From NCBI GenBank assembly GCA_000814665.1, contig JWIH01000020.1:479398-543397 (forward strand): a DNA stretch of 64,000 bases, written 5' to 3'. Each line of letters begins with the position of its first letter. The stretch's first letter is position 1. Positions 18,905-41,297 of the stretch are shown here, in pieces. The notes beneath the pieces are model-generated. The model was not told the origin of the DNA. It worked only from the letters and a program-made list of their open reading frames with translations, and did not search any database. Both the position numbers and the translations under genes were made by a program. The stretch comes from Pseudoalteromonas flavipulchra NCIMB 2033 = ATCC BAA-314 (lineage in GTDB: Bacteria > Pseudomonadota > Gammaproteobacteria > Enterobacterales > Alteromonadaceae).

Positions 18905-19570
18905 ATGCCGACTTTTACGGGCGAAGAAGCCCAAAACTACGACTCTAGGATCACAAAACTGGTGCCAGGTTATGCGTTAATTCACCAACTTACCGGGGCG
19001 CAACTGTTAGCACTTTACCCAGATAGCGCAACCATTTTGGTTGTGGGTGCAGGGACAGGCAAAGAAATTGTAGAGCTTGCTCAGCTAAACCCGAGTTGGC
19101 GGTTTATAGCGCAAGATGTATCTGCTGATATGTTGGCAATTGCAGATCAGCATTTTACTAAGTTAGGCCTACAAGAGCGCGTGCAGATCCATCATGGTGC
19201 GATTTCACCACAGGCCTACCAAGCGGATGCAGTACTATGCTTGTTGGTGATGCACTTTGTAAAAGATAACGGCGATAAAGCAAGCTTGTTTAAACAAATG
19301 AGTGAGCAGCTAAAGTCGGATGGGCATCTTTTTATTGCCGACTTAGAAAAACCTGCGACAAGCTTTGAACGTGAAGCGCAGTTAATCGTGTGCAAACAAC
19401 TTGGGCTGACTGATGTTGGCGAGCAACGTATGAGGGTAAATTTAGAGCATGAGTTTTACCCCGTGGATAAAATGCGCCTTGCTGAACTGCTAGACACCGC
19501 AGGTTTTGGCATTGCTAAACCTTTCTTCAAAGCCCTTGGGTTTGCTGGCTTTGTGGTAGATAAACAGTAG
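18905..19570 (+). CDS. Class I SAM-dependent methyltransferase
   Basis: A 221-residue methyltransferase with motif I VVGAGTGKEI, an acidic residue after strand 2 (FIAQDVSADML), motif post-I GAISP and motif III LKSDGHLFIADLEK. It resembles CmoA-like and ubiquinone-type small-molecule methyltransferases; the acceptor is unknown. AAGGA precedes the start, 10 bp after sbcC, so it may be co-transcribed. The coding sequence contains one copy of the 19-bp dispersed motif at 19144-19162, read as DQHFTK. Confidence 0.85.
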   Translation: MPTFTGEEAQNYDSRITKLVPGYALIHQLTGAQLLALYPDSATILVVGAGTGKEIVELAQLNPSWRFIAQDVSADMLAIADQHFTKLGLQERVQIHHGAISPQAYQADAVLCLLVMHFVKDNGDKASLFKQMSEQLKSDGHLFIADLEKPATSFEREAQLIVCKQLGLTDVGEQRMRVNLEHEFYPVDKMRLAELLDTAGFGIAKPFFKALGFAGFVVDKQ

Positions 19571-19582
19571 TTTTTATCTAAA

Positions 19583-19601
19583 TAACCTGAGCTTCGGATA
19601 A
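19583..19601. repeat. Solo end of the TAACCTGAG palindromic element
   Basis: TAACCTGAGCTTCGGATAA differs by one base from the left inverted repeat of the 198-bp element at 32473-32670. No matching right end was found nearby, so this is a fragment. Confidence 0.7.
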
Positions 19602-19602
19602 A

Positions 19603-19635
19603 TAAGCCAGACCATATTCGGGTGTGGCTTTTCCT
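19603..19635 (+). terminator. Terminator after the methyltransferase gene
   Basis: AAGCCAGACC and GGGTGTGGCTT form an imperfect stem around ATATTC, followed by TTTCCTTTCTT. Confidence 0.6.
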
Positions 19636-19665
19636 TTCTTACTCTTTCAAAGTAGCTTGTATTAA

Positions 19666-20187
19666 GTTAGTAAAATAATGATCTATCCAAACCAATTGCT
19701 GCTCCGCTACTGACGTCACCGCGCTTCATCTAAACCTCATGTCATTTACTTCTAAAAAGTTAGTAAAACTCTGATCTCAATGATGAAGATACAGGAAGTA
19801 GATCAGTATTTTACTTAGTAAAAATTTGATCTCTTCACAACTTGGCATACAGTTTAGTTGCCGCCTAATATCTAACCTTGTCTTATTATTTCCACTAACT
19901 TATTGATTTTTATATTACTAAGTTGGCGATAATCCAAAAATGGCGAAATAATAAGACGCAAGTTATAGTCAACGGCGAACTCATCATCCAGCCAAGTTAG
20001 ATTGTTAGTAAAAACCTGATCTCTGAGTAATGATTTCGCGTAGGTGCGTCCTGCAATAATATGCCAATCGTATGTTTTTGCTGAAAAATCAGGCGTTGAG
20101 AAGAGCAGGGCTTCTTGACTTGAAGCTTGAAGTAATGCGCTATCACGATATGACTGCCAAGTTGAATAGTTAGTAATATCGTGATCT
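19666..20187. repeat. Cluster A of the 19-bp GTTAGTAAAATNNTGATCT motif
   Basis: Six copies in 522 bp: 19666-19684, 19759-19777, 19814-19832, 20004-20022 and 20169-20187 on the + strand, and 19800-19818 inverted and overlapping the third. Most match the consensus at 16-17 of 17 fixed positions. The first four lie between two convergent genes, where promoters are not expected. The last two lie inside the minus-strand gene at 19872-20438, read there as DQVFTN and DHDITN. A seventh copy is at 19144-19162. Every copy holds one GATC. Function unknown. Confidence 0.85.
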
Positions 20188-20438
20188 GGCAGTCTTGCAG
20201 CAAATAAAAACTTGGCAAAAACATTGAAGATTTTCCGCCAACCATTGCCACAATGCGCATTAATATGTTCGATCTCCCCACTCGCTAACGCACTGACTTG
20301 CATCAAATTATTATAAGGTTCTATGCGTGGTGGATGTTCAATATAAAACGCAACTTTACCCGTTACGACACCCAAACCATGAGTTAGTATTTTTTTGCTC
20401 TGTGCTGTATTCATCATACTTTGCTGCGATCTATTCAT
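19872..20438 (-). CDS. Uncharacterised protein (possibly DUF6942 family)
   Basis: A roughly 188-residue soluble protein. The start is uncertain: ATG 20438, a GTG at 20444 and ATGs at 20417 and 20414 are all in frame, none with a strong ribosome binding site. Distinct features are VAFYIEHPPRIEPYNNL, then HCGNGWRKIFNVFAKFLF, and AGRTYAKSLL. I think this resembles DUF6942 proteins of Vibrio and Pseudoalteromonas, but that is from memory and unverified. Two copies of the 19-bp motif are part of its coding sequence, and four more lie just past its 3' end. Confidence 0.65.
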   Translation of the reverse strand: MNRSQQSMMNTAQSKKILTHGLGVVTGKVAFYIEHPPRIEPYNNLMQVSALASGEIEHINAHCGNGWRKIFNVFAKFLFAARLPDHDITNYSTWQSYRDSALLQASSQEALLFSTPDFSAKTYDWHIIAGRTYAKSLLRDQVFTNNLTWLDDEFAVDYNLRLIISPFLDYRQLSNIKINKLVEIIRQG

Positions 20439-20502
20439 TTGCACGTAAGTTTAAAATAAATAAGGTGAAATTGGCATGGTAAGGGTTTGAATTAAATTTT
20501 GC

Positions 20503-20646
20503 TTTTACTAGGGCCTGATTGGCATTTCTAATGCGTTATCGCCTGACTCACATAGAATAACTATGCTACACAGGCTCTTCCCTGTATAAATGGCAATCAA
20601 ACTGCTGCAAAAACAAACTTGAAAGATCAACAGGCCCTAGGTAAAA
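20503..20646. repeat. 144-bp palindromic (MITE-like) element
   Basis: Terminal inverted repeats TTTTACTAGGGCCTG and CAGGCCCTAGGTAAAA bound the element. Inside are a second inverted pair (GATTGGCATTT / AAATGGCAATC) and a hairpin GCCTG..CATAG..CTATG..CAGGC. It has no coding capacity. A shortened relative lies at 9023-9072. The structure fits a non-autonomous mobile or REP-like element. It lies between the genes at 19872-20438 and blc. Confidence 0.75.
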
Positions 20647-20716
20647 ATCGAACCTATCGTTAATCTTAGTGCTTGGTTACTACGTATGACATCAAGATGG
20701 AATATGGAGAACTTAT

Positions 20717-21253
20717 ATGAAAGTACCACAGTTATTTTTCACAGCGATTTTAGTGCTTGTAATTTCAGCATGCACAGGGCTGCCAGATGGCATCAAACCA
20801 GTTAAAGACTTTAATGTTGAGCGCTATACAGGCACTTGGTATGAAATCGCGCGATTAGATCATTCATTTGAAAGGGGAATGCAGAACGTCACGGCAACGT
20901 ATAGCCAAAATCCTGATGGTTCAATTAAAGTCGTAAATAGGGGATATGTAACAGAGGAAGGAGAGTGGAAAGAAGCGGTTGGCAAAGCTAAGTTTGTTGC
21001 AAATGATGAAATAGCGCATTTGAAAGTGTCATTTTTTGGTCCGTTTTATGGCAGTTATGTGGTATTCGAGTTAGATGAAGATTATCAGTATGCATTTGTT
21101 ACCAGCTACAACCGTGATTACCTTTGGTTGCTTTCTAGAGCACCTAAAGTGCCCGATACCGTAATGAATAAGTTTAAAACCATGTCAGAACAATATGGTT
21201 TTAACACCAATGAACTTATCTATATGAGACACGAACCCGTTCAAAAAGAATAG
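20717..21253 (+). CDS. blc: Outer-membrane lipoprotein lipocalin Blc
   Basis: A 178-residue bacterial lipocalin. The lipobox is VISAC with Cys19, giving a lipoprotein after cleavage by signal peptidase II. The lipocalin signature is FNVERYTGTWYEIARLDHSFE (SCR1, with the invariant GTWYE), followed by NVTATYSQNPDGSI, VVFELDEDYQYAFV and YLWLLSRAPK. Length and motifs match E. coli Blc, which binds lysophospholipids and is made under envelope stress. Confidence 0.93.
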   Translation: MKVPQLFFTAILVLVISACTGLPDGIKPVKDFNVERYTGTWYEIARLDHSFERGMQNVTATYSQNPDGSIKVVNRGYVTEEGEWKEAVGKAKFVANDEIAHLKVSFFGPFYGSYVVFELDEDYQYAFVTSYNRDYLWLLSRAPKVPDTVMNKFKTMSEQYGFNTNELIYMRHEPVQKE

Positions 21254-21272
21254 TGTAAACCCCCTTTACACT
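21252..21272 (+). terminator. Hairpin at the end of blc
   Basis: AGTGTAAA and TTTACACT form an 8-bp perfect stem with a C-rich loop, starting just before the stop codon. The T-tract behind it is weak. Confidence 0.45.
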
Positions 21273-21449
21273 AAAGTTCCTTTTATGGGTATTTTAACTT
21301 ACTAACAGAAGGGAGGCTGTATGTGAGTTGAGTCTAAGTGTCTTATTCCTGTAGGAAATGGTTAATAAATCATTCAGTCAACTGTAACAGGAACACTTCA
21401 CACTGTTGCACGCTTTACAAAAAATAATACTTAGGAACTGGAGTAACTC

Positions 21450-23369
21450 ATGAAGCGTGTAGCATATTCTCTTATTGCAGCGGCAGTTGCAATGGCACTT
21501 ACAGCCTGTGATGGTGACGACGGAGCACAAGGTCCTGCGGGTCCTCAAGGTGAGCAGGGCACTGCTGGCCAAGATGGTGCAAACGGTACTAATGGCTCAA
21601 ATGGTACAAACGGCACAAATGGACAAAATGGTACTGACGGACAGGACGGTCAAAATGGACAAGACGGCCAAAATGGTCGCGATGGTAGTTACAGCGTACC
21701 AGGCCTTGTTCGCATCGCAACCGTCCCTGCTGGTGCTGAAGTAACTGGTCTATTTCTCTCTGAAGGGGGTGACTTGTTCTTCAATGTTCAGCACCCAAAT
21801 GATACCAACACAGCTACTGATAAGTTCAATAGCAAGCCATTCAATACGGGTACTGTCGGTGTACTAACCGGTGTGAACTTTAATAATTTACCTGCAAATA
21901 TCCCAAGCGCACCAGTTCCTGCTTCGACCATGGAACAACAAACCGTGATTTCTGCAATTGGTCAATATCAAATCCTAGGCCAAACAGGTGATACATTCGC
22001 AAACCTTGGCACTAAGGGGTTAGCGGGTGGTTTGGGTGTACATTACAGCATCTCAACTGGTGAAGAAATCATTAAAAATGATAACCCTGACTTCAATGGT
22101 TATATTCCAGTCGATGCAAACACAGGTTACCTATTTACAAACTGGGAAGCGTACCCAGGTGGTGTCAGTCGTTTGAAAATGAGTAAAGCAACAACGGGTA
22201 AATGGTCAATCGAAGAAGCCATGATGGTAGACTTCGACGGTGTTAAAGGCACAGCAGCCAACTGCTTTGGTTCAGTATCACCTTGGGGCACACCGCTGAC
22301 TTCGGAAGAATGGATTGTCTGGTCTGAAGTTGATTCAACACAAGATCCACAGTGGAATAACCCTGCTGAAACAGGTAATGACACAATGGAAGCGTTAATG
22401 GCACCTGATTTCCCTAACCCTTATCGCTACGGTTACATTGCAGAAATCAAAAATCCTACAACCGAAACACCTGATGTTGTAAAACACTTTACAATCGGTC
22501 GTTATGAGCATGAAAACTCAGTTGTAATGCCTGACCGTCGTACTGTTTATTCATCACAAGATGATACCGGTGGCGTACTATTTAAATTTGTTGCAGATCA
22601 ACCAGAAGACTTAAGTGCAGGTACCCTATACGCAGCAAAGCTAACTCAAGATGCAGGCCTTACCGATCCGGCTGTAACTGGCTTTGACATTAGCTGGGTT
22701 GAGCTTGGTAGCGGCAGTAATGCACAGATTGAAACTTGGGTGGCCGAATACGACGGCATCAATGAGACTGACTATGTTGAAGGTCAAACAAGCTATCTGT
22801 CTGTTGCTGATGTAAAAGCGTGGGCAGAAGGCGCTGCAACTTATCCAACTGTTGCAAACGGTGGCGGTAAAGTAACGGCAGGTAAAGCGATGGACAACCG
22901 TGCTATCTTCCTTGAGTCTCGTCAGGCTGCACGCCAAAAAGGCGCTACGGCTGAATGGCGTAAACTTGAAGGCTTAAGCATCAACCATAACCGCGTACTT
23001 GAGGCAGTAACTGGTCAAGATGTAGTTGCCGGTGAGGTGGTAGATAAAGCCTATATGTATATCGGTATCTCGGATATCGACAACACCATGATTGATGGCG
23101 AAGGTGACATGCAGCTTTCTGCGCGTGTTAAAGATTGTGGCGGTGTATACCGTGCTCATATCGATAACAACTATAACTTAACTCGCATTGAACCGGTTGT
23201 CATGGGTGCAACTTACCGCTCGTCACTAACTGGCGCTGAGCGTTGTGACGTCAATCAACTTTCGCAGCCTGATAACGTAATCGTAATGGAAGATGGTCGC
23301 ATCATCATTGGTGAAGATGGCTTCCAAGAAAACAACACGCTTTGGCTTTATGACCCTAAAGCAAAATAA
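21450..23369 (+). CDS. PhoX-like (DUF839) lipoprotein with a collagen-like stalk
   Basis: A 639-residue lipoprotein. The lipobox is ALTAC with Cys20. Residues about 25-80 are some 18 uninterrupted Gly-X-Y triplets (GAQGPAGPQGEQG, then NGTNGSNGTNG runs). The rest is a beta-propeller-like domain with PhoX-family features: CFGSVSPWGTPLTSEEW (family C-x-G-x-TPWGTWLTCEE), GRYEHENSVVMPDRRTVY and SSQDDTGGVLFKFV. PhoX enzymes are Ca/Fe alkaline phosphatases exported by Tat; here export is by lipoprotein signal, which is unusual. The Trp-Leu-Thr-Cys-Glu motif is altered (PLTSEE), so phosphatase activity is uncertain. It precedes a di-haem lipoprotein gene. Confidence 0.8.
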   Translation: MKRVAYSLIAAAVAMALTACDGDDGAQGPAGPQGEQGTAGQDGANGTNGSNGTNGTNGQNGTDGQDGQNGQDGQNGRDGSYSVPGLVRIATVPAGAEVTGLFLSEGGDLFFNVQHPNDTNTATDKFNSKPFNTGTVGVLTGVNFNNLPANIPSAPVPASTMEQQTVISAIGQYQILGQTGDTFANLGTKGLAGGLGVHYSISTGEEIIKNDNPDFNGYIPVDANTGYLFTNWEAYPGGVSRLKMSKATTGKWSIEEAMMVDFDGVKGTAANCFGSVSPWGTPLTSEEWIVWSEVDSTQDPQWNNPAETGNDTMEALMAPDFPNPYRYGYIAEIKNPTTETPDVVKHFTIGRYEHENSVVMPDRRTVYSSQDDTGGVLFKFVADQPEDLSAGTLYAAKLTQDAGLTDPAVTGFDISWVELGSGSNAQIETWVAEYDGINETDYVEGQTSYLSVADVKAWAEGAATYPTVANGGGKVTAGKAMDNRAIFLESRQAARQKGATAEWRKLEGLSINHNRVLEAVTGQDVVAGEVVDKAYMYIGISDIDNTMIDGEGDMQLSARVKDCGGVYRAHIDNNYNLTRIEPVVMGATYRSSLTGAERCDVNQLSQPDNVIVMEDGRIIIGEDGFQENNTLWLYDPKAK

Positions 23370-23380
23370 TTAAGCAAGTA

Positions 23381-23412
23381 GTAGCGCACTGAATGGTGCG
23401 CTGCTTTTTTTT
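23381..23412 (+). terminator. Terminator after the PhoX-like gene
   Basis: GTAGCGCAC and GTGCGCTGC form a 9-bp stem with a 6-base loop, followed by eight T. The downstream gene starts only 24 bp later, so read-through or a weak internal promoter is needed for its expression. Confidence 0.85.
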
Positions 23413-23435
23413 AGCAAAATTTTGGAGTCATAAAA

Positions 23436-25091
23436 ATGAAATACGTTAGCCTAACTCTAGTGGCATTGACGAGCGTAGCCTTGTTTGGTTGTAATGATGA
23501 ACAGACTCAAGGGCTAACCAATACCGCACTTATGTCGGCGCAAACTACAGCACCTTATAAACAGGGTGATGATATTCCTGCGGCCGCATTTATGCAGCAC
23601 AATGAAGTCTATAACCCTGAATCAGTGATCCCACCTCAGTGTTACACCAAAACGGATGGCGTGAATAACCCTTGCTATGCCTGCCATCAATCATATGATG
23701 AAAAAAACCGACCAAACATGATGCGCGATGCCAATTTACAAGGCGCCTATGAGTTTTCCGATCTTGGATTTAAAAACCACTGGAAAAATTTGTTTAAAGA
23801 TCGTTCTGAGCTTATCAAAGGTATCTCAGATCAAGATATTACTAACTGGGTCAACCAAGATAATTACAGCCCTTTCATCGAAAAACTAAAAAATAACCCC
23901 GACTGGAAAGGTGAGATCACCCCGCTTAACAACTTGGCATATCCGGAAAAAGCGTTCGATGAGCTTGGTATAGCAAAAGACGGCAGTGGCTGGGTGGCAT
24001 TCAATTATAAACCTTTTCCTAGTACTTTCTGGCCAACCAATGGCTCTACAGGGGATGTCATGATCCGCCTTGCTGACGCCTTCAGAGAAAAGGGCGAAAC
24101 GTATAATCAGGACGTTTACCTTGCCAACTTAAGTTTGGTTGAAATGGCTGTAAAGGGGCTTGACGAAATATCAACGCCAGTGATTTCTGAGTCGCGAGTT
24201 GGCGTAGATTTAAATGGTGATGGCAAACTCACGAAGATCACTAGCATGCTGCGCAGTGAGCGTTACCTTGGTGATGCCAATACTATCGAGCTTGCTCATC
24301 AGTTATATCCACAAGACACTGAATTCTTACACACCGTTCGGTATATTGGGGTAGATGATAACGGCCAAGTATTTAATGCGCCAAGAATGAAAGAAGTGCG
24401 CTACATGAAAAAGCACAACTTTAAATCCAAGCAGTCACTCGGCGCTGCTTACTACAGAGAAGCGAAAGAAAAGTCATTCGAAAATTACCCACAAACGCTT
24501 TATTTGGGCGACCAAGGGATCAATAACAACTTCGGTTGGACGATTAACGGTTATATTGAAGACAAAAATGGTGCTCTTCGTCCGCAACATGAGCAAGAGC
24601 TCGCTTTTTGTAATGGTTGTCACAAAACCATTGGTTCAACCTATGACCAAACCTTCTCGTTTGCGCGTAAAGTCGAAGGCAAACTGGGTTGGGGTTATAT
24701 CAATTTAAAAGAGATGCAAGACGTACCTAACAAAGGCGAAGAGCAGGGGGAGTTCTTGACCTATATGATGCGTGTTGGCGGCGGTGATGAGTTTAGGCAA
24801 AACCAAGAGATGCTAATGCGCTGGTTTAACGAAGATGGCACGGTAAACAGCAAAAAAGTGCAGTCTGCGAAAAACCTTTATGAATTGATCACACCATCAA
24901 AACCACGTGCGCTGGCACTGAATAAAGCCTATTTAACCATTGTTAAAGAGCAAAGTTACCTATTCGGTCGTGACGCCACCATAGTAAAAGCGCGTAATGT
25001 GCTTGAACAAGTCGATGATTCTCAACAGCCTCTAGAGCCAGAGCACCGATATGTGTGGGATATGCAGCTGGATTGGAATAAAGCCGAGTAA
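23436..25091 (+). CDS. Di-haem c-type cytochrome-like lipoprotein
   Basis: A 551-residue lipoprotein with lipobox ALFGC (Cys19). Two haem c sites are present, CYACH at residues 80-84 and CNGCH at residues 392-396. A calcium-type loop DLNGDGKLT lies near residue 260. Between the haem sites are conserved-looking stretches such as NYKPFPSTFWPTNGSTGDVM and FGWTINGYIEDKNGALRPQHEQ. I do not recognise a named family. It follows the PhoX-like gene by 66 bp, suggesting a joint surface or periplasmic function. The coding sequence contains one 19-bp motif copy at 23828-23846, read as DQDITN. Confidence 0.8.
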   Translation: MKYVSLTLVALTSVALFGCNDEQTQGLTNTALMSAQTTAPYKQGDDIPAAAFMQHNEVYNPESVIPPQCYTKTDGVNNPCYACHQSYDEKNRPNMMRDANLQGAYEFSDLGFKNHWKNLFKDRSELIKGISDQDITNWVNQDNYSPFIEKLKNNPDWKGEITPLNNLAYPEKAFDELGIAKDGSGWVAFNYKPFPSTFWPTNGSTGDVMIRLADAFREKGETYNQDVYLANLSLVEMAVKGLDEISTPVISESRVGVDLNGDGKLTKITSMLRSERYLGDANTIELAHQLYPQDTEFLHTVRYIGVDDNGQVFNAPRMKEVRYMKKHNFKSKQSLGAAYYREAKEKSFENYPQTLYLGDQGINNNFGWTINGYIEDKNGALRPQHEQELAFCNGCHKTIGSTYDQTFSFARKVEGKLGWGYINLKEMQDVPNKGEEQGEFLTYMMRVGGGDEFRQNQEMLMRWFNEDGTVNSKKVQSAKNLYELITPSKPRALALNKAYLTIVKEQSYLFGRDATIVKARNVLEQVDDSQQPLEPEHRYVWDMQLDWNKAE

Positions 25092-25320
25092 AGTATATTC
25101 AGGGTAGGACACTTCCTGCTCTGAGTTGATAAAGGCGCAAAGATAGGGGACTGGCACTGATAAGAGGTAGTTTCAAATTGAAATTGCACGCTAATCTTTT
25201 GGTAGCGGATAAGTGCATGTCTTTTCATTATTTCTGAAACTCCAAAAGCAAGTTTCTGAGGGCAATTCATTGTTTTTATTACTGCTTTAAAGTTACACTT
25301 GTTTTAAGACAGGAGTGGGT

Positions 25321-26139: not shown

Positions 26140-26200
26140 ACCTTGAAGGTAAGATAAAACTTAAGCTCGGAGCAGAGCTGAGTTACTCTTCTCGCTTTTT

Positions 26201-26459
26201 GGATCAGAATTTAACTAACCAATAGTATTCCTTTAGCGCTTAGATCAGGATTTTACTAAGCTAGCCCGAAAACAAGACTATCAGATCATATTTTTACCAA
26301 CTGATTAAGCTAATTGAGCTCATTAGATCACGATTTTACTAACCTACCTTAGTTTGAGTTAGTAAATTTGCGGTGTATATCGCCACTATTGCTGATATTT
26401 TATGCTAAATGATGTGGTTTCAAAGAGTTAACAAAGGAATGTTAGTAAAATTGTGATCT
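26201..26459. repeat. Cluster B of the 19-bp motif, with a 41-bp periodic array
   Basis: Four copies of AGATCANNATTTTACTAAC in the same orientation start at 26201, 26242, 26283 and 26325, so the period is 41, 41 and 42 bp. The 22-23-bp spacers are unrelated. A fifth, inverted copy at 26441-26459 matches the consensus perfectly. Weaker or coding copies follow at 26535-26553 and 27600-27618. A half-copy (GAGTTAGTAAAT) is near 26357. The whole set lies between convergent genes. The spacing is close to four helical turns, which would put bound proteins on the same face. Confidence 0.85.
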
Positions 26460-26487: not shown

Positions 26488-26820
26488 TTAAAATATGATC
26501 CAATACAGCGTACTGAGCAGCATAGCGATAATGACTAGGTAAAATAGTGATCTGAAGTAACTAGGTTTGGTCGCAAAGATAGCGATAAGTAGTAATACTG
26601 CCAAGGTCATATAACCAATAAACTCTAAGCTACCGTAGGCCCCCTGAGTTTTAAGAGCAAGTGCCAAGCTGCTGCCGAGGCAGAGCCAGCCGGCAATGGT
26701 TAATTGACTTGTTACGTTACCTTTTGGACGTGTACCAAATACTTCTTTATAGTGATTGGGTTTTGCTACTGCAAAACCCATAAACGCTAGCAGGCAAAGT
26801 AAAAACGTTAGCCATTCCAT
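26488..26820 (-). CDS. DUF3325 family membrane protein
   Basis: A 110-residue protein with three or four hydrophobic helices (LTFLLCLLAFMGFAVA, IAGWLCLGSSLALAL, YMTLAVLLLIAIFA, LFYLVIIAMLLSTLYWIIF) and the short NHYKEVFG segment after helix 1, typical of DUF3325. Such genes end operons of a PepSY-TM protein next to siderophore receptors. Its start codon overlaps the stop of the PepSY gene. A weak 19-bp motif copy at 26535-26553 lies inside, read in a different frame (RSLFYL) from the other coding copies. Confidence 0.8.
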   Translation of the reverse strand: MEWLTFLLCLLAFMGFAVAKPNHYKEVFGTRPKGNVTSQLTIAGWLCLGSSLALALKTQGAYGSLEFIGYMTLAVLLLIAIFATKPSYFRSLFYLVIIAMLLSTLYWIIF

Positions 26821-28403
26821 TAGGCGTTTACCTCATGTTTTGCTTGGCGACGTGGTGTCGCTGGCGCTGCTTTGGTACTGCCGAGCTTTTTGGCTTGAAC
26901 CAAGAAACCGAACGCGATACCAATAGCCATCACATCAAAACCAAATAATACCCACTGACCATTAATGAAATAGCTAACAATGCTGCCATCAGTGGTTAGC
27001 ATGTTTACGACAGGCAGTAAGCCCCACACGATAGCATTTACTTTCGCAGAGAGCAGCCACGCTAGCCTATCCGACTTAAATAGAGCAGCCAGAGTGAATA
27101 CTCCCCACGTAACAAAGAACACCAGAACTTCTTTGTCTGCACGTCCCGCTAATTCCATTGGAAGCAATCGGTTTGCATAAAAGAACATCGCCGTTGCGGC
27201 TGGCAGACCCATAATGGTGCCTAAATTGAGCGACTCCACAAGCCTAAGGCCTACACCCGGTTTGTCATCACCTTTGAGCTTTTGGCGCAGTCTTTTTGCC
27301 CACATAACCGCACCAGTAGCAATCATGGCACATCCCGCTAATCCAGCAACAAAGTATAACCAACGCAAAAGCGGCTCTGCTAAACGTCCAGTGTGCAGTG
27401 CTATCATTCCGCCGTAGAGATTTTCAGCGCCAGACAGTGTCACATTGTGCGTTTTTAACAGCTCACCTGATACCGCGCTATACATCCAGCTTGGTGGGTC
27501 ATCCTGAACAGTACGTTGAGCATTGGCATAAAGCTTAATCGTTGCGCTTGCATCCCCTGGCGATGAGATCACAATGCGGCGAAGCGGTGCGTCACCAGAG
27601 TTAGTAAAATAATGATCTAACGCTGTATTTAATGCGAGCTCCTTCAATGGTTGTCCTGTTTCAGGGATCGCAGCAAGAAAGGGGTAGCGTTCGGCTCGGA
27701 GCGTTTTTGTATCTTCAAAGCGCTGCTCAGCTGGTTGTGGCAGCAACATAAAAATAAGCGTCACTAAGCCGGTGTAAGTGATCATAATATGAAACGGTAA
27801 TGCAACCACGGAAGAGAGATTGTGGGCGTCTAGCCAACTTCTCAGTCCTTTCCCGTTTCTAAATTGGAATAGATCTTTGAAAATGCGTTTATGGATCACT
27901 ACGCCAGAAATAAGCGCAATCAGCATAAACAGAGTTGCAAAACAGACAATCCAGCGCGCGGTGATTGCGTTCATGTAATGTAAGTCAAAATGCAAACGAT
28001 AGAAAAAGTTACCGCCTTTAGTCTCTCTAAACTCAGGAAGTGCCTCCAGCGTTACTGGGTCAAGATACTCCGAGTGACGTTTTCCACGTCTTTCCCCTTC
28101 GGCTGGCTTTTCAGAGTACATCAATAGCAAGCTTGGGCGACGCTCTGTTGGCATCTCAATACGCCAAGACTCGGCGCTTGGCGCTGTCTCTTGAAACCGT
28201 TCGATACTCTTTTTGACCGTTTCATTTTGTTGAGCGCTATCGTAATGAGGTAGATGATGTGTCGCAGGTTGTGCCCACAGACTGATCTCATGTCTGAAAA
28301 AACTCGCTGTACCAGCAAAAAAGATTAAAAACAGCAACCAACAAACGAGTAAACCAACCCAAGTGTGTAGCCAAGTCATACTGCGGAAAAATGACTCTCT
28401 CAC
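26820..28403 (-). CDS. PepSY-associated TM helix protein (iron-uptake type)
   Basis: A 527-residue inner-membrane protein. I start it at the GTG at 28403, overlapping the upstream stop as GTGA, because GGAGG lies 6 bases before it; an in-frame ATG at 28445 lies inside the upstream gene. Residues 9-30 form helix 1 (LHTWVGLLVCWLLFLIFFAG), followed by a periplasmic domain, paired helices around HFDLHYM...ARWIVCFATLFMLIA, and a second PepSY-like periplasmic domain. These proteins (PiuB/FecR-neighbour type) are thought to reduce iron-siderophore complexes. A perfect 19-bp motif copy at 27600-27618 is read as DHYFTN. Confidence 0.85.
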   Translation of the reverse strand: MRESFFRSMTWLHTWVGLLVCWLLFLIFFAGTASFFRHEISLWAQPATHHLPHYDSAQQNETVKKSIERFQETAPSAESWRIEMPTERRPSLLLMYSEKPAEGERRGKRHSEYLDPVTLEALPEFRETKGGNFFYRLHFDLHYMNAITARWIVCFATLFMLIALISGVVIHKRIFKDLFQFRNGKGLRSWLDAHNLSSVVALPFHIMITYTGLVTLIFMLLPQPAEQRFEDTKTLRAERYPFLAAIPETGQPLKELALNTALDHYFTNSGDAPLRRIVISSPGDASATIKLYANAQRTVQDDPPSWMYSAVSGELLKTHNVTLSGAENLYGGMIALHTGRLAEPLLRWLYFVAGLAGCAMIATGAVMWAKRLRQKLKGDDKPGVGLRLVESLNLGTIMGLPAATAMFFYANRLLPMELAGRADKEVLVFFVTWGVFTLAALFKSDRLAWLLSAKVNAIVWGLLPVVNMLTTDGSIVSYFINGQWVLFGFDVMAIGIAFGFLVQAKKLGSTKAAPATPRRQAKHEVNA

Positions 28404-28705
28404 AGGGAGCCTCCAAAATGCGTCAGTGCGCCGTAGAGAATACAAAGTAGTCCGATCATGCCAAGAAATACTTTTCTAAAAGAGCGGCATCCAAACACCC
28501 AAATAAAAACGATGGCGTAAAAGACGATGCCGGTTGTTAATGCATATAAAAGCGCATCTAGGCGCGGAGTAGGTAAAGTTAAAGCCAACAAAGATGAAGC
28601 CAAAACGGTCACGTAATAGCCGCCGAAAATAGCGATGAAAAAGCGTGCTAGCACTTCAGCTCTGTACAAAATAGCCTTATTGTTTGTGTTATCCCGACTA
28701 GGCAT
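28400..28705 (-). CDS. DUF3649 family membrane protein
   Basis: A 101-residue protein with three hydrophobic helices (FFIAIFGGYYVTVLASSLLAL, LLYALTTGIVFYAIVFIWVFG, VFLGMIGLLCILYGAL) matching DUF3649. It is the first gene of the DUF3649-PepSY-DUF3325 operon, a set usually controlled by Fur and linked to siderophore uptake. A Fur-box-like sequence lies about 60 bp upstream. Confidence 0.8.
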   Translation of the reverse strand: MPSRDNTNNKAILYRAEVLARFFIAIFGGYYVTVLASSLLALTLPTPRLDALLYALTTGIVFYAIVFIWVFGCRSFRKVFLGMIGLLCILYGALTHFGGSL

Positions 28706-34481: not shown

Positions 34482-34489
34482 ATTCAGCA

Positions 34490-34999: not shown

Positions 35000-35269
35000 C
35001 CTTTGCTCCTATTAAGGGTTAAATTGTAGCTCCACAAGCTTGTCAGATAATTGTGTAAATACTGTTAAAAATTGTTAGATGCGAGCAATGTTAAAGACTG
35101 TTCTGACCAGTATGACCGCGCGCTGTAATAGATGGGAATAATCATTCGATGTAATAGAACGAAATAGCCAAATTTGACTAATTTTATTCTCGCGTAGGTT
35201 TGGTAGGCTAACCATTAAATAATGGCGCTGAACTTATTCTCTCAAGTTCAGATTAACCCGAGAGTTATT

Positions 35270-36097
35270 ATGAAAATTATCCGAACTAACAAAGCACAGG
35301 CGACACAAGATGGTGCTGGTGTAAATATTAACCGCATCGCTGGATTTGACGGCAAGAGTTTAGATCCTTATCTCATGATTGATGAATTGAAATCAGATAA
35401 TCGCAGTGACTTTATGGCTGGCTTCCCACCGCACCCACACCGAGGCATTGAAACCTTTACTTATATTCGCAAAGGCGGCTTTGAGCATAGAGATCAAATG
35501 GGTAATGTCAAAGCCATTCGCAGCGGTGATGTGCAGTGGATGAGCACCGGGCGTGGTGTGGTGCATTCAGAAATGCCGCTAAGTGACGCACAAGGCATGC
35601 ATGGCTTTCAAATTTGGCTAAATATGCCAGCAAAAGACAAAATGCGAGCGCCTAGATATCAAGATACAACTGAGCACCCTGCACCACAAAAAGCGATAGC
35701 AAAAGCTGGTCATTTCAAAGCACTGGCGGGCACATGGCAAGTGGCGGGCGAAGTGCTTACATCGTCATTACAGTCTCTTGCAGGGGAAGGAGCACTTGCA
35801 GATGTGACCTTAACTGCGGGAAGTCAATTGCACCTTGAACTGGCTCAGTTTGGCAAGGTGATGATCTACATTCATTCGGGCAGATTTGAAAACTATGGGG
35901 AGCAAACGCTGCTTGAGCTTGACCCCAGCCAAAACCTTGATCTCTTAGCTACGGATGATGTTGGCTTTTTGATCCTCGCAGGGCAGCCGATTAATGAAAA
36001 AATAGCGCATATGGGACCATTTGTGATGAATACCCAAGAGGAGCTTCATCAAGCGGTAAAAGATTATCAACAAGGACGCTTCGGCGATATTGTATAG
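35270..36097 (+). CDS. Pirin family protein
   Basis: A 275-residue bicupin. The ATG at 35270 (MKIIRTNKAQ) is chosen; an in-frame ATG at 35222 adds 16 residues without homology. The pirin metal site is in FPPHPHRGIETFTYIRKGGFEHRD, followed by QWMSTGRGVVHSEMP and a C-terminal cupin. Bacterial pirins such as YhhW act as quercetin dioxygenases or stress-related regulators. It is 9 bp upstream of yqjG and most likely co-transcribed, so a role in quinone or aromatic metabolism is plausible. Confidence 0.92.
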   Translation: MKIIRTNKAQATQDGAGVNINRIAGFDGKSLDPYLMIDELKSDNRSDFMAGFPPHPHRGIETFTYIRKGGFEHRDQMGNVKAIRSGDVQWMSTGRGVVHSEMPLSDAQGMHGFQIWLNMPAKDKMRAPRYQDTTEHPAPQKAIAKAGHFKALAGTWQVAGEVLTSSLQSLAGEGALADVTLTAGSQLHLELAQFGKVMIYIHSGRFENYGEQTLLELDPSQNLDLLATDDVGFLILAGQPINEKIAHMGPFVMNTQEELHQAVKDYQQGRFGDIV

Positions 36098-36106
36098 GAG
36101 GTTTAC

Positions 36107-37090
36107 ATGGGATTATTAATTGACGGTCAATGGCACGATAAGTGGTATGACACAAAAAGTAGCCAAGGCAAGTTTGAGCGTGAGTCTGCAAAACTAAGAA
36201 ATTGGGTAACAGCAGACGGCAGTACAGGGCCAACGGGTAAAGCGGGCTTTAAAGCCGAGTCCGGACGTTACCATTTGTATGTTTCCCTTGCGTGTCCTTG
36301 GGCTCATAGAACGCTTATTTTCAGACAGCTTAAACAATTAGAGGCGCATATTGATGTCTCGATTGTAGACCCAGATATGTTAGATCAAGGTTGGTGCTTT
36401 ACCAGTCAGCGGCCAGAAGTCGGTGATAGCCTGTATCAGCTCAGTTTTATGCATCAGCTGTATACGAAAAACGACCCAAATTATTCGGGTCGAGTCACGG
36501 TGCCAGTCCTTTGGGATAAACAAACGGAGCAGATCGTGAGCAACGAATCGAGTGAAATCATTCGTATGTTTAATCGTGCGTTTAACCAGATAACGGGAAA
36601 CGACACCGATTATTACCCAGAGGCGTTACAGCATGAAATCGATGAAATAAACGAATTTGTTTATCACAATATCAACAATGGCGTATATAAGGCCGGATTT
36701 GCGACAACCCAAGATGCTTATCACAATGCGGTAAGCGCGTTATTTAACGCGCTAGATAAGCTTGAAGCAAGACTCGCTGCGCAACGTTATCTTGTGAAAG
36801 GACAATTAACGGAAGCCGACTGGCGATTATTTACGACTCTCATCCGTTTCGATAGCGTGTACCATGGTCACTTCAAGTGCAACATTAAGCAAATCGAAGA
36901 TTACCCCAATATTTCTGCCTATGTGCGTGACTTATATCAACATCAAGGTATTGCAGATACAGTTGATTTTTACCACATTAAAAGGCACTACTACTTTAGC
37001 CATACGATGATCAATCCAACCCAAGTAGTACCAGAAGGGCCAAGCATTGATTATCACCGTTTTCATAACCGTAAAGGCATCACGTTGTAA
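36107..37090 (+). CDS. yqjG: Glutathionyl-hydroquinone reductase
   Basis: A 327-residue glutathione transferase of the Xi class. The catalytic cysteine is Cys63 in YVSLACPWAHRTL. GRVTVPVLWDKQT (the cis-Pro) and NESSEIIRMFN (the glutathione gamma-glutamyl site) follow, and the C-terminal helical domain has EADWRLFTTLIRFDSVYHGHFK. The family reduces glutathionyl-hydroquinones to hydroquinones. TAGGAGG precedes the ATG. Together with pirin it fits a quinone-handling operon. Confidence 0.93.
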   Translation: MGLLIDGQWHDKWYDTKSSQGKFERESAKLRNWVTADGSTGPTGKAGFKAESGRYHLYVSLACPWAHRTLIFRQLKQLEAHIDVSIVDPDMLDQGWCFTSQRPEVGDSLYQLSFMHQLYTKNDPNYSGRVTVPVLWDKQTEQIVSNESSEIIRMFNRAFNQITGNDTDYYPEALQHEIDEINEFVYHNINNGVYKAGFATTQDAYHNAVSALFNALDKLEARLAAQRYLVKGQLTEADWRLFTTLIRFDSVYHGHFKCNIKQIEDYPNISAYVRDLYQHQGIADTVDFYHIKRHYYFSHTMINPTQVVPEGPSIDYHRFHNRKGITL

Positions 37091-37151
37091 ATAACCTCCG
37101 TGTGCAGGGTAAGTAATCTTTGTCTTTGTTTCTATTTGGACTAGATTTAAT

Positions 37152-37200
37152 AATGCGTTTGCTTGTAGCTGCCCTTTGTGCTTAAGTGCAAACGCATTTT
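37152..37200 (+). terminator. Terminator after yqjG
   Basis: AATGCGTTTGC and GCAAACGCATT form an 11-bp perfect stem with a long loop of about 25 bases, followed by TTTT on the + strand. Confidence 0.65.
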
Positions 37201-37244
37201 AGGTCTTTATGCCTAACAGTTAGGCCACTGTCCAAGGAGAAAAT

Positions 37245-40200
37245 GTGTCTTCTTCCAATATTGCTAAGGGCGCTATTGTACTGCTGCTCGCCGTGATGGT
37301 GAGTGCCATCTTATATTTTGAAAACAGTATCCATCGTGACCTGAACGAGGGCTTTTATCAGCGCTTGGAGCAGGTACATTCGGCACAAAACAATATTTAC
37401 TTGGGAGAGATCGACGATAACCGCCGGTTTCTTTATTTTCTGCTAGATACCCCGCCAATTCAGGGTATCGCCAGAGCGGAAAAAAACGATGGTATCGACC
37501 CTCAAGAAAACACGCCGCTTGATGTTTGGCGGGCACGACTAAGTACGATTTTTAGGTCAATGTTATATTCGTATGATGGCCTTAACCAAATCCGCCTACT
37601 TGACGCCCATACAGGCGTTGAGATGGTTAGGGTTGAACGGCAGCTAGGGCAGGTCATCGCTGTACCCGATAGCAAACTACAGGATAAGAGCGAAAGTGAT
37701 TACTTTATCCAAGCACTGCAACTGCCAGAACGCACTATCTATTCCACAACAATCAACTTAAATCGCGAGCACGGACAGGTCGTCACGCCTTTTCAACCAA
37801 CCAAACGCTTTACCTTACCGACCTACGATATAGATAACGAATTATTTGGTATATTGGTAATTAATACCAATGCTGAAAAGATGATAGACAGAATTGTCTC
37901 TCAAGTGCCTAGTATGCAAAAAGTGATGCTCTTAGGTGCAGATGACTCATTTATTTATCACCCTGAATTTTCGCTACGATACAGCAAAGATATAAACCCC
38001 GAAATCAACTTTCAAACATTATATCGCGTGACACCATGGTCCAATAAAATCCAACTGGTGGAAGAAAAGTCAACGGGAGAGCAGTTTCTTGCGCTCATTA
38101 GCAAGGTTGAAGGGGCTAACTTTAACAACTTAGAAGTTAAGCTCGTTAATCTTATCCCTTTTGCTGTTTATCAGCAAAGCCTCAATGAAAAACGATTAAC
38201 CACCTATGTTTTACTCGCGATTGCCTGCGGTGTATTCGCTCTAGTCTTTTTTGCATTTTGGCAATATACCCATAGTTTACGTGCGCTCGATTCAACGCGA
38301 GCAGAGTTTAAGGCGATTTTAGATGGTGCCTCAGATGGTGTGCTTGGCTTTGATAGCAACTTAAAGCTCACCAGCTTTAATGAGTCGGCACAGCGTTTCT
38401 TTAAGCAGCTGAATAACAGTCGTTTAGGTAACAACCCACAGTTTTTGCCAGAGGCTGTGCATCAGTTTTTATTTCACTATGCCAATATGGTTTTACAGGG
38501 CGAAGTGGTGGAGTCTAAGTCATTACAACTAGACTTGAACGCCCATGAGAACATCTGGCTTTCACTTAGTTTATCTCCAATCTATGCAGGAAACGGGCGC
38601 ATTCAGGGGGTCGCACTATTTGTTGAAGACATCACTGCGAAAAAAGAAGCGGAAGCACAGTTAGTTGGTGCAAATGAACGACTAGAGCAAGAGGTGAAGG
38701 AGCGCACCAAAGAGCTGGTGGACGCTCGGGATAAAGCAGCGAAAGCGTCGGAAGTGAAAAGTGCATTTATTTCCACTATCAGCCATGAAATGAGGACGCC
38801 TCTCAATGGTATTTTAGGATCACTAAACTTGGTGAGAAAAGAGCCCGTTACTAAGCACCAACATAAGTACCTAGAAATGATGGAAACGAGCTCGACTACG
38901 CTTTTGTCGTTAATTAACGATGTACTGGACTTGTCGAAGATAGAAGCGGGTAAGCTGGACATTGATAATGAGCCGTTCAACCCGCTCTCTGTCATTGAGC
39001 ATGTCGCGCTATCTATGTCGGCGAAAGCCAAAGAACAGGGTATCACTTATATTTTGGACCAAACTGGTTTAGCGCATATTGAACTGTGCGGTGATGCGGC
39101 GCGCGTTAAACAAATAATTTATAACCTCCTCAGTAACGCAATTAAATTTACTAAAAAAGGTCATGTGAAATTGACCGTTACCACCGAACAGTTAGACGAC
39201 ACGGTATGGCTTAAAGTCACTGTGGAAGACACTGGAGTTGGAATTGAAAAAGCTAATCAAAACAAGCTATTTCAATCGTTTAGTCAAGAATCTGCTAATA
39301 CCTCGAACGAGTTTGGAGGCACAGGCCTTGGACTCTCTATTTGTAAGCAGTTAGTCGAAAAGATGCTCGGCCATATTCACTTTGAGAGTGAAAAGTTTAA
39401 AGGCAGCAAGTTTTGGTTTGAATTACCCTTTTCTAGTGCGCAAACTAAGCCCATCAACGTGCCTGAAGTATTGGCCGATAAAACAGTCTCTGTGTTCAGC
39501 AAAACAAAACTGGAGTCAGAGACTGTTGCTAAGCTTATCGCTCTATGTGCTGGTGAATACGTTGAGAAAGAGGCACAGAGTGATATATGCATCATTACCA
39601 ATGAGCAAGATTATATTCAAGTGAAGTCAGCTCAAAATCATTTTGAGAAACTTATTTTAGTGGGGGATGAACTTCAGAATATTAACGATGCTGATAACAT
39701 AGTGCATATCTCTTCACCTCTTAGAGTTGGAGAGTTTGTTGCGCTATTTGACTTAAACAAAGCAATCAGATTACAGCCTAGCTTGAAGAAATCAGGTGAG
39801 ACAGTTGCATTAAGTGGTAACTTGGTCGCGGGCTGTCACTTCTTGGTAGTAGACGATAATCAAATCAACCGGATTGTGGCAAAAGGCATTTTGGAAGGAC
39901 AAGGAGCTAAGGTGAGTTTTGCTGTTGATGGTCAAGATGCTGTGAATAAACTGCTGTTATTTGAGCATCAAGAGGTTGATTTTGATGCTATCTTTATGGA
40001 CTGTAATATGCCAGGAATGGATGGGTATCAGGCCACAAGAGCGATCCGTCAAGGTCAAGGTGGTGATAAGTATAAAGATGCGATCATTATTGCGATGACT
40101 GCCAGCGCCCTTGCGGGTGAAAAAGAACGTTGTCTCAATGCAGGAATGGATGAGTTTGTGACTAAACCTGTGGTCGTCGAACAGTTATTTGACGTGCTAG

Positions 40201-40643
40201 ATGCGCTAGGTGTGCATGCTAAGGATGATGATTCTGTGCTTATTCACCCGTTTGAAAGTGTGGCAGAAGAGCAAATAAGCCTGCCGATAAACGAAGCTGA
40301 CGTGCTCGAGCGCCTCTCTGGGGACGAAGAATTACTTAAAAAGGTGTACACCTTATTCTTGAACGACTCTGAAAATCAAATGCAACAGCTTAGATTGAGT
40401 ATCAAAAATAGTAATTGCGATGCATCGGCAAAATACAGCCATGCACTTAAAGGTCAAGCTGGTGATTTAGCCGCAGAAGCACTCTTTGATCTGCTTGATA
40501 AAATAGAGACTTATGCGCGTGAACACCAAGCTGGGCAGTGTAAATCACACTTGGAACAAGCGCAAAGTGAATACGATAAAGTCGTCGTATTTGCAAAAAA
40601 ACGCGTGAGTGAGCTAGAGTTCGTAGATATCAACAGTGGCTAA
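37245..40643 (+). CDS. Membrane-bound hybrid histidine kinase with receiver and HPt domains
   Basis: A 1132-residue sensor. The start is a GTG with AAGGAG upstream. One helix near residues 7-25 and a second near 318-338 (VLLAIACGVFALVFFAFW) bracket a dCache-like periplasmic domain. Then come a PAS domain, a coiled linker, HisKA with His514 in SHEMRTPLNG, an ATPase domain (DAARVKQIIYNLLSNAIK, TGLGLSIC), a degenerate receiver-like stretch, a true receiver with Asp919 in MDCNMPGMDG, and an HPt domain with His1066 in YSHALKG. All phosphorelay steps up to a separate response regulator are in one chain. No cognate output regulator is adjacent. Confidence 0.93.
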   Translation: MSSSNIAKGAIVLLLAVMVSAILYFENSIHRDLNEGFYQRLEQVHSAQNNIYLGEIDDNRRFLYFLLDTPPIQGIARAEKNDGIDPQENTPLDVWRARLSTIFRSMLYSYDGLNQIRLLDAHTGVEMVRVERQLGQVIAVPDSKLQDKSESDYFIQALQLPERTIYSTTINLNREHGQVVTPFQPTKRFTLPTYDIDNELFGILVINTNAEKMIDRIVSQVPSMQKVMLLGADDSFIYHPEFSLRYSKDINPEINFQTLYRVTPWSNKIQLVEEKSTGEQFLALISKVEGANFNNLEVKLVNLIPFAVYQQSLNEKRLTTYVLLAIACGVFALVFFAFWQYTHSLRALDSTRAEFKAILDGASDGVLGFDSNLKLTSFNESAQRFFKQLNNSRLGNNPQFLPEAVHQFLFHYANMVLQGEVVESKSLQLDLNAHENIWLSLSLSPIYAGNGRIQGVALFVEDITAKKEAEAQLVGANERLEQEVKERTKELVDARDKAAKASEVKSAFISTISHEMRTPLNGILGSLNLVRKEPVTKHQHKYLEMMETSSTTLLSLINDVLDLSKIEAGKLDIDNEPFNPLSVIEHVALSMSAKAKEQGITYILDQTGLAHIELCGDAARVKQIIYNLLSNAIKFTKKGHVKLTVTTEQLDDTVWLKVTVEDTGVGIEKANQNKLFQSFSQESANTSNEFGGTGLGLSICKQLVEKMLGHIHFESEKFKGSKFWFELPFSSAQTKPINVPEVLADKTVSVFSKTKLESETVAKLIALCAGEYVEKEAQSDICIITNEQDYIQVKSAQNHFEKLILVGDELQNINDADNIVHISSPLRVGEFVALFDLNKAIRLQPSLKKSGETVALSGNLVAGCHFLVVDDNQINRIVAKGILEGQGAKVSFAVDGQDAVNKLLLFEHQEVDFDAIFMDCNMPGMDGYQATRAIRQGQGGDKYKDAIIIAMTASALAGEKERCLNAGMDEFVTKPVVVEQLFDVLDALGVHAKDDDSVLIHPFESVAEEQISLPINEADVLERLSGDEELLKKVYTLFLNDSENQMQQLRLSIKNSNCDASAKYSHALKGQAGDLAAEALFDLLDKIETYAREHQAGQCKSHLEQAQSEYDKVVVFAKKRVSELEFVDINSG

Positions 40644-40663
40644 AGTGAGTGAGGCCTTGGTTG

Positions 40664-40691
40664 AATAATGGTGAGGTTATTCACCATTATT
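40664..40691. terminator. Bidirectional terminator
   Basis: AATAATGGTGA and TCACCATTATT form an 11-bp perfect stem around GGTTAT, overlapping the stop codon of the DJ-1 gene on the minus strand. Confidence 0.7.
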
Positions 40692-41265
40692 AACTTCTAG
40701 GCCAGTCATAATCCATTTGGGTTGCGGTTTTTCTTGCAACAGATTGTCCGAAGCGTTTTTTCACCAGCTCTAAACTCATATCTATACCTGCCGAAATACC
40801 CGCTGAGCTAGTAAAATTCTGATCCATCATAAATCTTACGTCCTCAACGACTTCTAAAGAGGGATATTGCTCTCTCAAATCGTCGATATCCTGCCAGTGG
40901 GTGGTGACTCGCTTGCCATCAATAAGGCCTGCTTCGGCATATAAAAACACACCTGTACAAACAGATGCGCACTGAGAGGTATGATTCGCTGTTTCTGCAA
41001 GCCAATTAAGTACGTTGTGATCTCCGCAAATTTGGTGATGAAGTCCGCCTACTACGATGAGCAAATCAAACTTTGGATGCGAGTAAATACTGTAATGGGG
41101 GTTTACACTCATGCCGCCACGCGAGGTAACAGGAACATGACTTGGAGCGACAAGGCTGACGTTAATCGGCGTTTCGATAAATCGCTTTGCGGTGTTGAAT
41201 ACCTCAAACGGGCCGCAAAAATCTAAACACTCTGCACCGTCATAGATAAAAATACCAACTTCCAT
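40690..41265 (-). CDS. DJ-1/PfpI family protein (isonitrile-hydratase-like)
   Basis: A 191-residue protein. The nucleophile elbow is ASVCTGVFLYAEAGL with Cys103, preceded by LLIVVGGLH and followed by TTHW and the family stretch DQNFTSSAGISAGIDMSLEL. This matches the AraC-regulator-associated and isonitrile-hydratase branch of the DJ-1 superfamily, without a DNA-binding domain. Substrate unknown. The 19-bp-like sequence at 40807-40825 encodes the conserved DQNFTS segment, so that match may come from protein conservation. Confidence 0.87.
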   Translation of the reverse strand: MEVGIFIYDGAECLDFCGPFEVFNTAKRFIETPINVSLVAPSHVPVTSRGGMSVNPHYSIYSHPKFDLLIVVGGLHHQICGDHNVLNWLAETANHTSQCASVCTGVFLYAEAGLIDGKRVTTHWQDIDDLREQYPSLEVVEDVRFMMDQNFTSSAGISAGIDMSLELVKKRFGQSVARKTATQMDYDWPRS

Positions 41266-41278
41266 TATTTCTTCCCAC

Positions 41279-41297
41279 AGATCAGTTTTTTACTAAC
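41279..41297. repeat. Isolated copy of the 19-bp dispersed motif
   Basis: AGATCAGTTTTTTACTAAC matches the reverse consensus at 16 of 17 fixed positions. It lies 14 bp upstream of the DJ-1 gene start, in the divergent region before the M3 peptidase. This is the only copy in a position where a transcription operator would be natural. Confidence 0.75.

Follow-up and report, generated by a model that had tools for sequence, protein, structure and literature searches.

The stretch of DNA analysed here, called the window below (64,000 nucleotides; C13:479398-543397 of the 5.45-Mb, 25-contig genome of Pseudoalteromonas flavipulchra, G000), raises a simple question: what is the 19-bp word, defined by 17 fixed positions, that recurs in it 17 times with one GATC in every copy? 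The answer that fits best, and that we hold with good confidence, is that the motif is an iteron, or predicted binding site, of RepA, the protein that initiates replication of the second chromosome (chromid) in Pseudoalteromonas. That confidence covers the explanation as a whole, within which the location of the copies, their conservation, the orthology of an array on chromosome 1 and the conservation of copies embedded in coding sequence are matters of observation.

Distribution of the motif

Counted over the 17 fixed positions, four of the window copies are perfect, seven have one mismatch, five have two and one has three. They occur on both strands, with seven lying within reading frames and ten between them. 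Dinucleotide shuffles gave a mean of 0.38 copies, and none of 100 shuffles reached 17. The initial annotation of this DNA had all 17 positions right, and its picture of copies on both strands, mostly matching at 15–17 positions and several of them perfect, each with one GATC and too numerous for chance, was borne out, with the proviso that one copy appears only at three mismatches. Its further statement that the motif occurs nowhere else in the window holds up to three mismatches and fails at four, where three more degenerate copies (20383, 26358 and 26483) come up within the existing clusters.

Over the whole genome there are 32 copies at up to two mismatches and none of the control pattern, the motif read backwards. 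Of these, 27 fall within 103 kb (C13:417848-520694), four at C23:100865-101113 and one on C18. At up to one mismatch, 35 of 36 Pseudoalteromonas genomes (P. flavipulchra included) carry 6–17 copies and none of the control, and among 24 genomes of other genera a single copy was found in five and none in 19. The search of this and related genomes that the initial annotation had suggested thus yields copies well above control and bound to the genus, and the chance-level numbers in relatives that it had allowed for did not materialise. Among the candidates it offered, the data agree with a protein-binding site in which a Dam site is nearly invariant, and disagree with the uptake signal and the mobile repeat. 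A DNA-uptake signal would be expected in hundreds of copies genome-wide, and the copies of a supposed tiny mobile repeat are few and, across several species, keep their codon positions in orthologous genes. Both were rejected because the copies are few, clustered near the chromid origin (ori2) plus one orthologous chromosome-1 locus, and fixed in codon position. A literature search with the letters GTTAGTAAAAT and ATTTTACTAAC, which did not extend to subscription papers and supplements, returned no paper on Pseudoalteromonas by title.

The motif at the chromid origin

As judged from sequence, the window is chromid DNA, and its motif copies lie 80–102 kb from ori2. This follows from the RepA encoded on contig C13, which is 99–100% identical to RepA of Pseudoalteromonas sp. 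HM-SA03, Pseudoalteromonas sp. S2755 and P. piscicida; from the presence on that contig of tus (415043-415972), repA (416566-417780) and parA (from 418477); and from the published chromid, whose tus, repA, ori2 and parA2B2 are described as a single cluster (PMC7858055). The same study presents repA plus ori2 as a tested minimal replicon and most Pseudoalteromonas chromids as replicating unidirectionally (PMC7858055).

In P. flavipulchra, five copies at up to two mismatches occupy the repA-parA intergenic region. The kilobase upstream of repA, or as much of it as the contig holds, was then scanned at 73 named repA loci of this one genus (the best of 82 found). All 73 carry 3–8 copies at up to three mismatches, 402 in total; the reversed pattern gave none, and the repA bodies hold no copies. 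Several directional repeat copies in the origin beside the initiator gene, which is the arrangement expected of iterons, are therefore found at every locus. The initial annotation did not know the motif as a replication iteron; the reading favoured here is nonetheless an iteron, that of the chromid initiator. One copy starts 86–89 bp before repA in 11 of 12 loci, and the GATC is near-invariant in ori2 copies (94–100% at positions 15–18). The ori2 regions of six inspected loci contain 1–3 DnaA boxes and 14–19 GATC. A palindrome, AAGATC-n-GATCTT, is also present in 56 copies at 55 of the 73 loci, all of them in ori2 and 293–526 bp from repA. Two repA sequences do not read through, which may be due to assembly error: the match at G023:C7:471413-472625 falls into two overlapping pieces, one with a stop, and that of L238 behaves likewise.

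The close relative G080 has a 1.23-Mb chromid with 26 copies, every one of them between ori2 and a point 102 kb away. In chromids of the unidirectional type, such as those of G012 and G083, dif2 stands on the tus side of ori2, so the window arrays would lie on the early-replicated side.

RepA as the candidate binder

RepA fits best as the binder of the motif and is very probably the binder, as most tested plasmids with a related RepA carry repeats of the same build. When the 1.5 kb upstream of repA was scanned for GATC-n1..5-TTTAC, such repeats were found beside repA on four of five tested plasmids (RepA 46–53% identical); two further plasmid relatives, G013:C10 and NZ_CP023400, lie outside the five. 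Plasmid pTML1 has five upstream of repA, with a repeat like GATCAGATTTACTACATGT, and donghaensis unnamed2 has eight, of the form AGATCGCATTTACACGTTATT. The eight upstream of repA on G079:C77, again AGATCGCATTTACACGTTATT, form an array near-identical to that of donghaensis unnamed2, and G008:C3, the counterpart of pKCTC22325, carries three upstream of repA and three more just downstream, and has copies of the chromid motif itself beside repA. The right part of the repeat is different in pTML1 and the donghaensis plasmid. On the plasmids, arrays were sought only in the stretches read. Dense arrays upstream of plasmid repA genes, with 10 to 17 copies at 22- and 43-bp spacing, were also seen at L290:4908-5885 and L294:5703-6680.

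The repeat format tracks RepA: on pTML1 tus finds no match and ParA is just 32% identical, and the 13-kb stretches read of donghaensis unnamed2, G079:C77 and G008:C3 contain no ParA2 match. RepA itself has no sequence match in Pfam, NCBIfam or PDB, and its profile matches no PDB chain, RctB included. The best PDB matches of its low-confidence predicted structure are RctB domains 2–3 (E-value 1.7e-8, template modelling (TM) score 0.29), then RepE, with Pi at an E-value of 0.0012. RctB, RepE and Pi are all iteron initiators.

The window array and its conservation in coding sequence

The copies of the window are listed in Table 1. Around 13 motif clusters of relatives, picked for holding the motif, 11 stretches share the gene neighbourhood of the window in varying number (DUF6942, UDG, PepSY_TM, the 110-aa frame, lipocalin and methyltransferase), and those of G073 and G034 have none of its genes. 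Copies embedded in coding sequence occupy the identical codon column, frame and strand in aligned genes of 33–74% identity. The 110-aa frame has another motif column as well, present in nine of 11 aligned frames, that of P. flavipulchra not among them. Such codon-fixed copies suggest selection on the DNA word and would be hard to explain without it; shared amino acids contribute to the pattern and were not separated out. An Rfam search of the window for RNA gave no match to the motif, its sole match being a manganese riboswitch (yybP-ykoY) elsewhere, at 45430-45599 on the minus strand.

Table 1. Copies of the 19-bp motif in the window, with their strand and the conservation of those that lie in reading frames (counts include the P. 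flavipulchra gene or frame itself)
Feature	Position	Strand	Basis or conservation
Copy in methyltransferase gene (18905-19570 +)	19144..19162	-	Same codon column in 5/9 aligned genes
Perfect copy, intergenic	19666..19684	+	Motif match
Copy, intergenic	19759..19777	+	Motif match
Copy, intergenic, overlapping the opposite-strand copy at 19814	19800..19818	-	Motif match
Copy, intergenic	19814..19832	+	Motif match
Copy in DUF6942 gene (19872-20444 -)	20004..20022	+	Same codon column in 5/12 aligned genes
Copy in DUF6942 gene (19872-20444 -)	20169..20187	+	Same codon column in 6/12 aligned genes
Copy in 551-aa frame without Pfam match (23436-25091 +)	23828..23846	-	Same codon column in 4/6 aligned genes
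Array copy 1, next start 41 bp on	26201..26219	-	Motif match
Array copy 2, next start 41 bp on	26242..26260	-	Motif match
Array copy 3, next start 42 bp on	26283..26301	-	Motif match
Array copy 4, perfect	26325..26343	-	Motif match
Array copy 5, perfect, orientation opposite to copies 1-4	26441..26459	+	Motif match
Copy with three mismatches in 110-aa frame (26488-26820 -)	26535..26553	+	Same column in 3/11 aligned frames
Perfect copy in PepSY_TM gene (26820-28445 -)	27600..27618	+	Same codon column in 7/11 aligned genes
Copy in DJ-1/PfpI gene (40690-41265 -)	40807..40825	+	Absent from 2 other aligned genes, 30-34% identical
Copy, intergenic	41279..41297	-	Motif match

The array on chromosome 1

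A second location of the motif is chromosome 1, where the copies, mostly with 2–4 mismatches, are gathered in one array past the 3′ end of fba. In P. flavipulchra, Pfam places fructose-bisphosphate aldolase, PGK and GAPDH-type genes on one side of the array, and a porin, a response regulator, a PhoR-type kinase and a periplasmic binding protein on the other. Every one of the 108 genus genomes has the fba locus, and its flank was read in 84. In 79 of these, 4–9 copies lie within 1 kb of fba (450 copies, against four of the reversed control). In G095 and G129 they lie 1.5–2.3 kb away, and G102 and G016 have four and two copies, respectively, at up to three mismatches about 2 kb away. One orthologous array is thus present in 83 of 84 genomes; a single conserved mid-arm locus on the main chromosome is what a crtS-type site would look like. 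The background in flanking chromosome-1 DNA at the same cut-off is 0.076 copies per kb (10 in 132 kb). The order of the array is strictly a minus block followed by a plus block in 74 of the 84. Seven inspected arrays contain 10–17 GATC, compared with about 2–3 expected from their length, and no DnaA box by exact pattern, so they do not look like origins. A GATCC ending is found in 57% of chromosome-1 copies and in 14% of those of ori2, and chromosome-1 copies are possibly a distinct functional class of site.

The single-contig genome G001 has no repA, tus or MinC above the cut-off and keeps its chromosome-1 array of five copies. As a natural deletion test it is uninformative, since a MinC above the cut-off is missing too and the chromid may have been lost or be missing from the assembly.

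Following a comparison described for Vibrionaceae in an earlier study (PMC5854411), the distance from array to dif1 was set against the chromid fork length, ori2 to dif2, in 27 genomes with replicons complete or nearly so. For G008, G020, G021, G022, G025, G070 and G073, in which dif2 was not located, an ori2-dif2 gap of 14 kb was assumed, and G020 is in four contigs with chromosome 1 not closed. The array-dif1 distance is the longer in 27 of 27 genomes. G064 was left out of the headline regression because its dif1 lies far from the midpoint of chromosome 1; without it, the excess is 279 ± 86 kb, with a range of some 160–530 kb, and the raw fit has a slope of 0.90 ± 0.08 (r=0.91, n=26), and with it r is 0.84. 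For V. cholerae a delay of 200 kb is reported, near this excess (PMC6090056). The chromids of G002, G102 and G017, in which dif2 is opposite or displaced, are fitted by fork length and not by total length (raw r 0.50). The array lies 434–799 kb from ori1 in 13 relatives measured, and the distance from dnaA to array (653 ± 101 kb, n=12) has r=-0.15 with chromid fork length. There are two types of dif, one ending ..TATATTATGTTAAAT and the other ..TACGTTATGTTAAAT, which trade places between the replicons: the former is on chromosome 1 in G088, G120, G127 and G080, and it or a close variant is on the chromid in G106, G111, G028, G116, G083 and G095, which suggests an exchange of dif between chromosome 1 and chromid.

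A possible mechanism

Taken together, these elements could act in several ways. The first is initiation: RepA would bind the iterons of ori2, mixed there with DnaA boxes and other GATC sites, and so start chromid replication. A second is autoregulation, in which RepA bound to the copy just upstream of repA would limit its own synthesis. A third would operate through the window array, taken here as a conserved locus for RepA binding that lies away from ori2 on the side replicated early. This array would double soon after initiation, and RepA might then be titrated, or handcuffed with ori2, in such a way that re-initiation is hindered; we lean towards titration at this array. A fourth would involve the inverted array on chromosome 1, a candidate crtS-like timer that the chromosome-1 fork would pass mid-arm. 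Once replicated, this array would alter the state of RepA and thereby trigger ori2, such that both replicons terminate together. Some role of this array in inter-chromosome control seems reasonably probable, and its action as a positive trigger is a more tentative proposal, at slightly below even chances. Finally, the GATC in the copies could make binding sensitive to Dam methylation; given the near-invariant GATC of the ori2 copies and the RctB precedent, Dam dependence is an even bet.

Weighing the interpretation

Several points weigh against this account. The binding of RepA to the motif is a prediction from sequence comparison, and the structural model of RepA is weak, with a mean predicted local distance difference test (pLDDT) score of 58. 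The fifth tested plasmid, G004:C12, has no such repeats upstream of repA in spite of a RepA 46% identical, nor do three relatives with a RepA 28–31% identical. ParB2 may be the binder instead and is the main alternative; no parS2 has been identified in the P. flavipulchra chromid, and some relatives offer a candidate in a cluster of palindromes. The 13 clusters of relatives, being chosen for the motif, show synteny and not how often the locus carries copies. In G114, the 2.5 kb next to fba contain no array, and chromosome-1 copies in general may bind weakly or differently, as they are degenerate and differ in their GATCC ending. Phylogenetic contrasts of the timing data are not significant, with r=0.31 and p=0.13 without G064 (25 contrasts, one-gene tree) and r=0.25 and p=0.21 with it. 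Moreover, a similar raw correlation is to be expected of any gene whose distance from ori1 is fixed. For these two reasons, the timing correlation is compatible with a timer and no proof of one.

The strongest rival accepts the motif as a RepA iteron and differs only in making the chromosome-1 array a mere titration sink or relic that times nothing. It is a serious contender, if the less probable reading, and draws on the degeneracy of the chromosome-1 copies and on the loss of the timing correlation after phylogenetic correction. A relic, however, would decay, and this array keeps one orthologous place in nearly every genome and, in most, its strict minus-then-plus order.

Another rival, and an improbable one, makes the copies parS2-type centromere sites of ParB2. 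The motif adjoins parA2, clusters near an origin are typical of parS, and no other parS2 is at hand in the P. flavipulchra chromid. Palindromy, which marks parS, is lacking, since only two of 17 positions are palindromic. In addition, the same build of repeat stands beside repA on plasmids with a ParA 32% identical or with no ParA2 match in the stretch read, and a chromid centromere array conserved mid-arm on chromosome 1 would misplace ParB2. A separate multi-copy palindrome, TTACTA-n4-TAGTAA, itself argues against this reading as a competing candidate. Its 55 copies belong to 20 of the 73 loci (L166-L238), several per locus in steps of roughly 190 bp, all on the parA side and 6.66–7.61 kb from repA; it is not found in the P. 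flavipulchra chromid. It is a sequence-level candidate for parS2 in part of the genus, or it may represent inverted half-iterons, as one half of the palindrome is similar to TTAGTAA in the motif. At up to three mismatches, 99 looser copies lie beyond ori2 in 36 loci and 22 on the other side of repA, compared with 11 of a control pattern, and those in the P. flavipulchra chromid are single and scattered. Within 280–543 kb of contig C13, the universal parS has no match, and the Vibrio parS2 gives six one-mismatch rows (three places, both strands) against 2.2 for shuffled patterns.

Still less probable is that the motif represents the Ter sites of the chromid-borne Tus. The 2021 study states that ter sites were not found and calls the mechanism of synchrony worth further study (PMC7858055). 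In favour of Ter sites, tus adjoins ori2, and Tus and the motif (at up to one mismatch) are both missing only from G001 among the same-genus genomes searched for each. The reverse complement of the motif also shares ..ACTAA with the E. coli Ter core. Against them, G001 also lacks repA and a MinC above the cut-off, and so its chromid is absent. Ter sites should, moreover, surround the replication terminus. In the bidirectional chromid of G002 (1.6 Mb, 23 sampled pieces), GC skew is positive to 0.80 Mb and negative from 0.84 Mb and dif2 lies at 819264. Of the 21 copies that this chromid has at up to two mismatches, however, 20 stand from 8 kb before to 129 kb beyond ori2, with the remaining one 26 kb from dif2. 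The Ter reading was rejected on this ground. The arrays, moreover, mix orientations on the early-replicated side, one lies mid-arm on chromosome 1, a place where blocking a fork would do harm, and the repeat format occurs on pTML1, which has no Tus. The E. coli Ter core gave 12 matches at three mismatches in 280–543 kb of C13 plus three G002 pieces, versus 14.1 for shuffled patterns. Second, divergent tus genes were noticed outside the chromid contig at G008:C3, G021:C3, G013:C10, G030:C30 and G079:C188.

Least probable of all is a site that has nothing to do with replication, whether a transcription-factor operator or a nucleoid-organising site. This reading could point to the position of the chromosome-1 array upstream of the porin gene, with genes for a PhoR-like protein and a periplasmic binding protein nearby, and to a PhoX gene within the window, but it sits poorly with the dense arrays, the window copies inside reading frames, the motif at all ori2 loci and the repeat format shared by repA plasmids.

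Comparison with known systems

The iteron interpretation finds its nearest parallel in the RctB system of V. cholerae. Both involve a plasmid-derived second chromosome, and both have one mid-arm site on chromosome 1, named crtS in V. cholerae. The initiator would be of the winged-helix Rep type in both, going for RepA by its low-confidence model. GATC within the iterons is common to both, and the V. cholerae account includes a distal cluster 40 kb from ori2, in which six sites within 74 kb are held to titrate (PMC6090056). Termination synchrony of both replicons is likewise reported in V. cholerae and Pseudoalteromonas (PMC7858055). There are differences as well. The RepA profile of Pseudoalteromonas has no sequence match to RctB, and the predominantly unidirectional chromids are a further distinction. 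In V. cholerae, crtS has no homology to the iterons (PMC6090056), whereas the chromosome-1 site of Pseudoalteromonas is an array of the ori2 motif. The comparison suggests an architecture that would work like the RctB system without placing it there, given an initiator that does not match RctB in sequence and a chromosome-1 site made of iterons. The 2021 study reports no crtS-like site in Pseudoalteromonas (PMC7858055).

Two other kinds of system invite comparison. Iteron plasmids, such as those with F RepE, R6K Pi or P1 RepA and incA, have an origin next to the initiator gene with directional repeats about 20 bp long, and use additional repeats for control; the Pseudoalteromonas arrays differ in being spread over 100 kb, in coding genes and on another replicon. 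The datA locus of E. coli carries DnaA boxes, and the Pseudoalteromonas sites would instead be of the RepA type. A proposed titration of the initiator after origin duplication is common to both, a comparison made in the literature for V. cholerae (PMC6090056).

Implications for two-chromosome replication

For the change of a domesticated plasmid into a second chromosome firing once in each cycle, the molecular details are known chiefly from V. cholerae. In Pseudoalteromonas, it is tentatively proposed, with chances a little under even, that an inter-chromosome timer is built of the chromid initiator's own iterons, apparently evolved independently of Vibrio, and that coding-embedded arrays near ori2 shut initiation off. 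With a defined 19-bp motif, mapped on both chromosomes, and a protein proposed to bind it, the claim is directly testable, and the outcome would tell whether the same three-part control evolved twice. If it is true, the motif arrays on both chromosomes suggest how two replication programmes could be kept in step.

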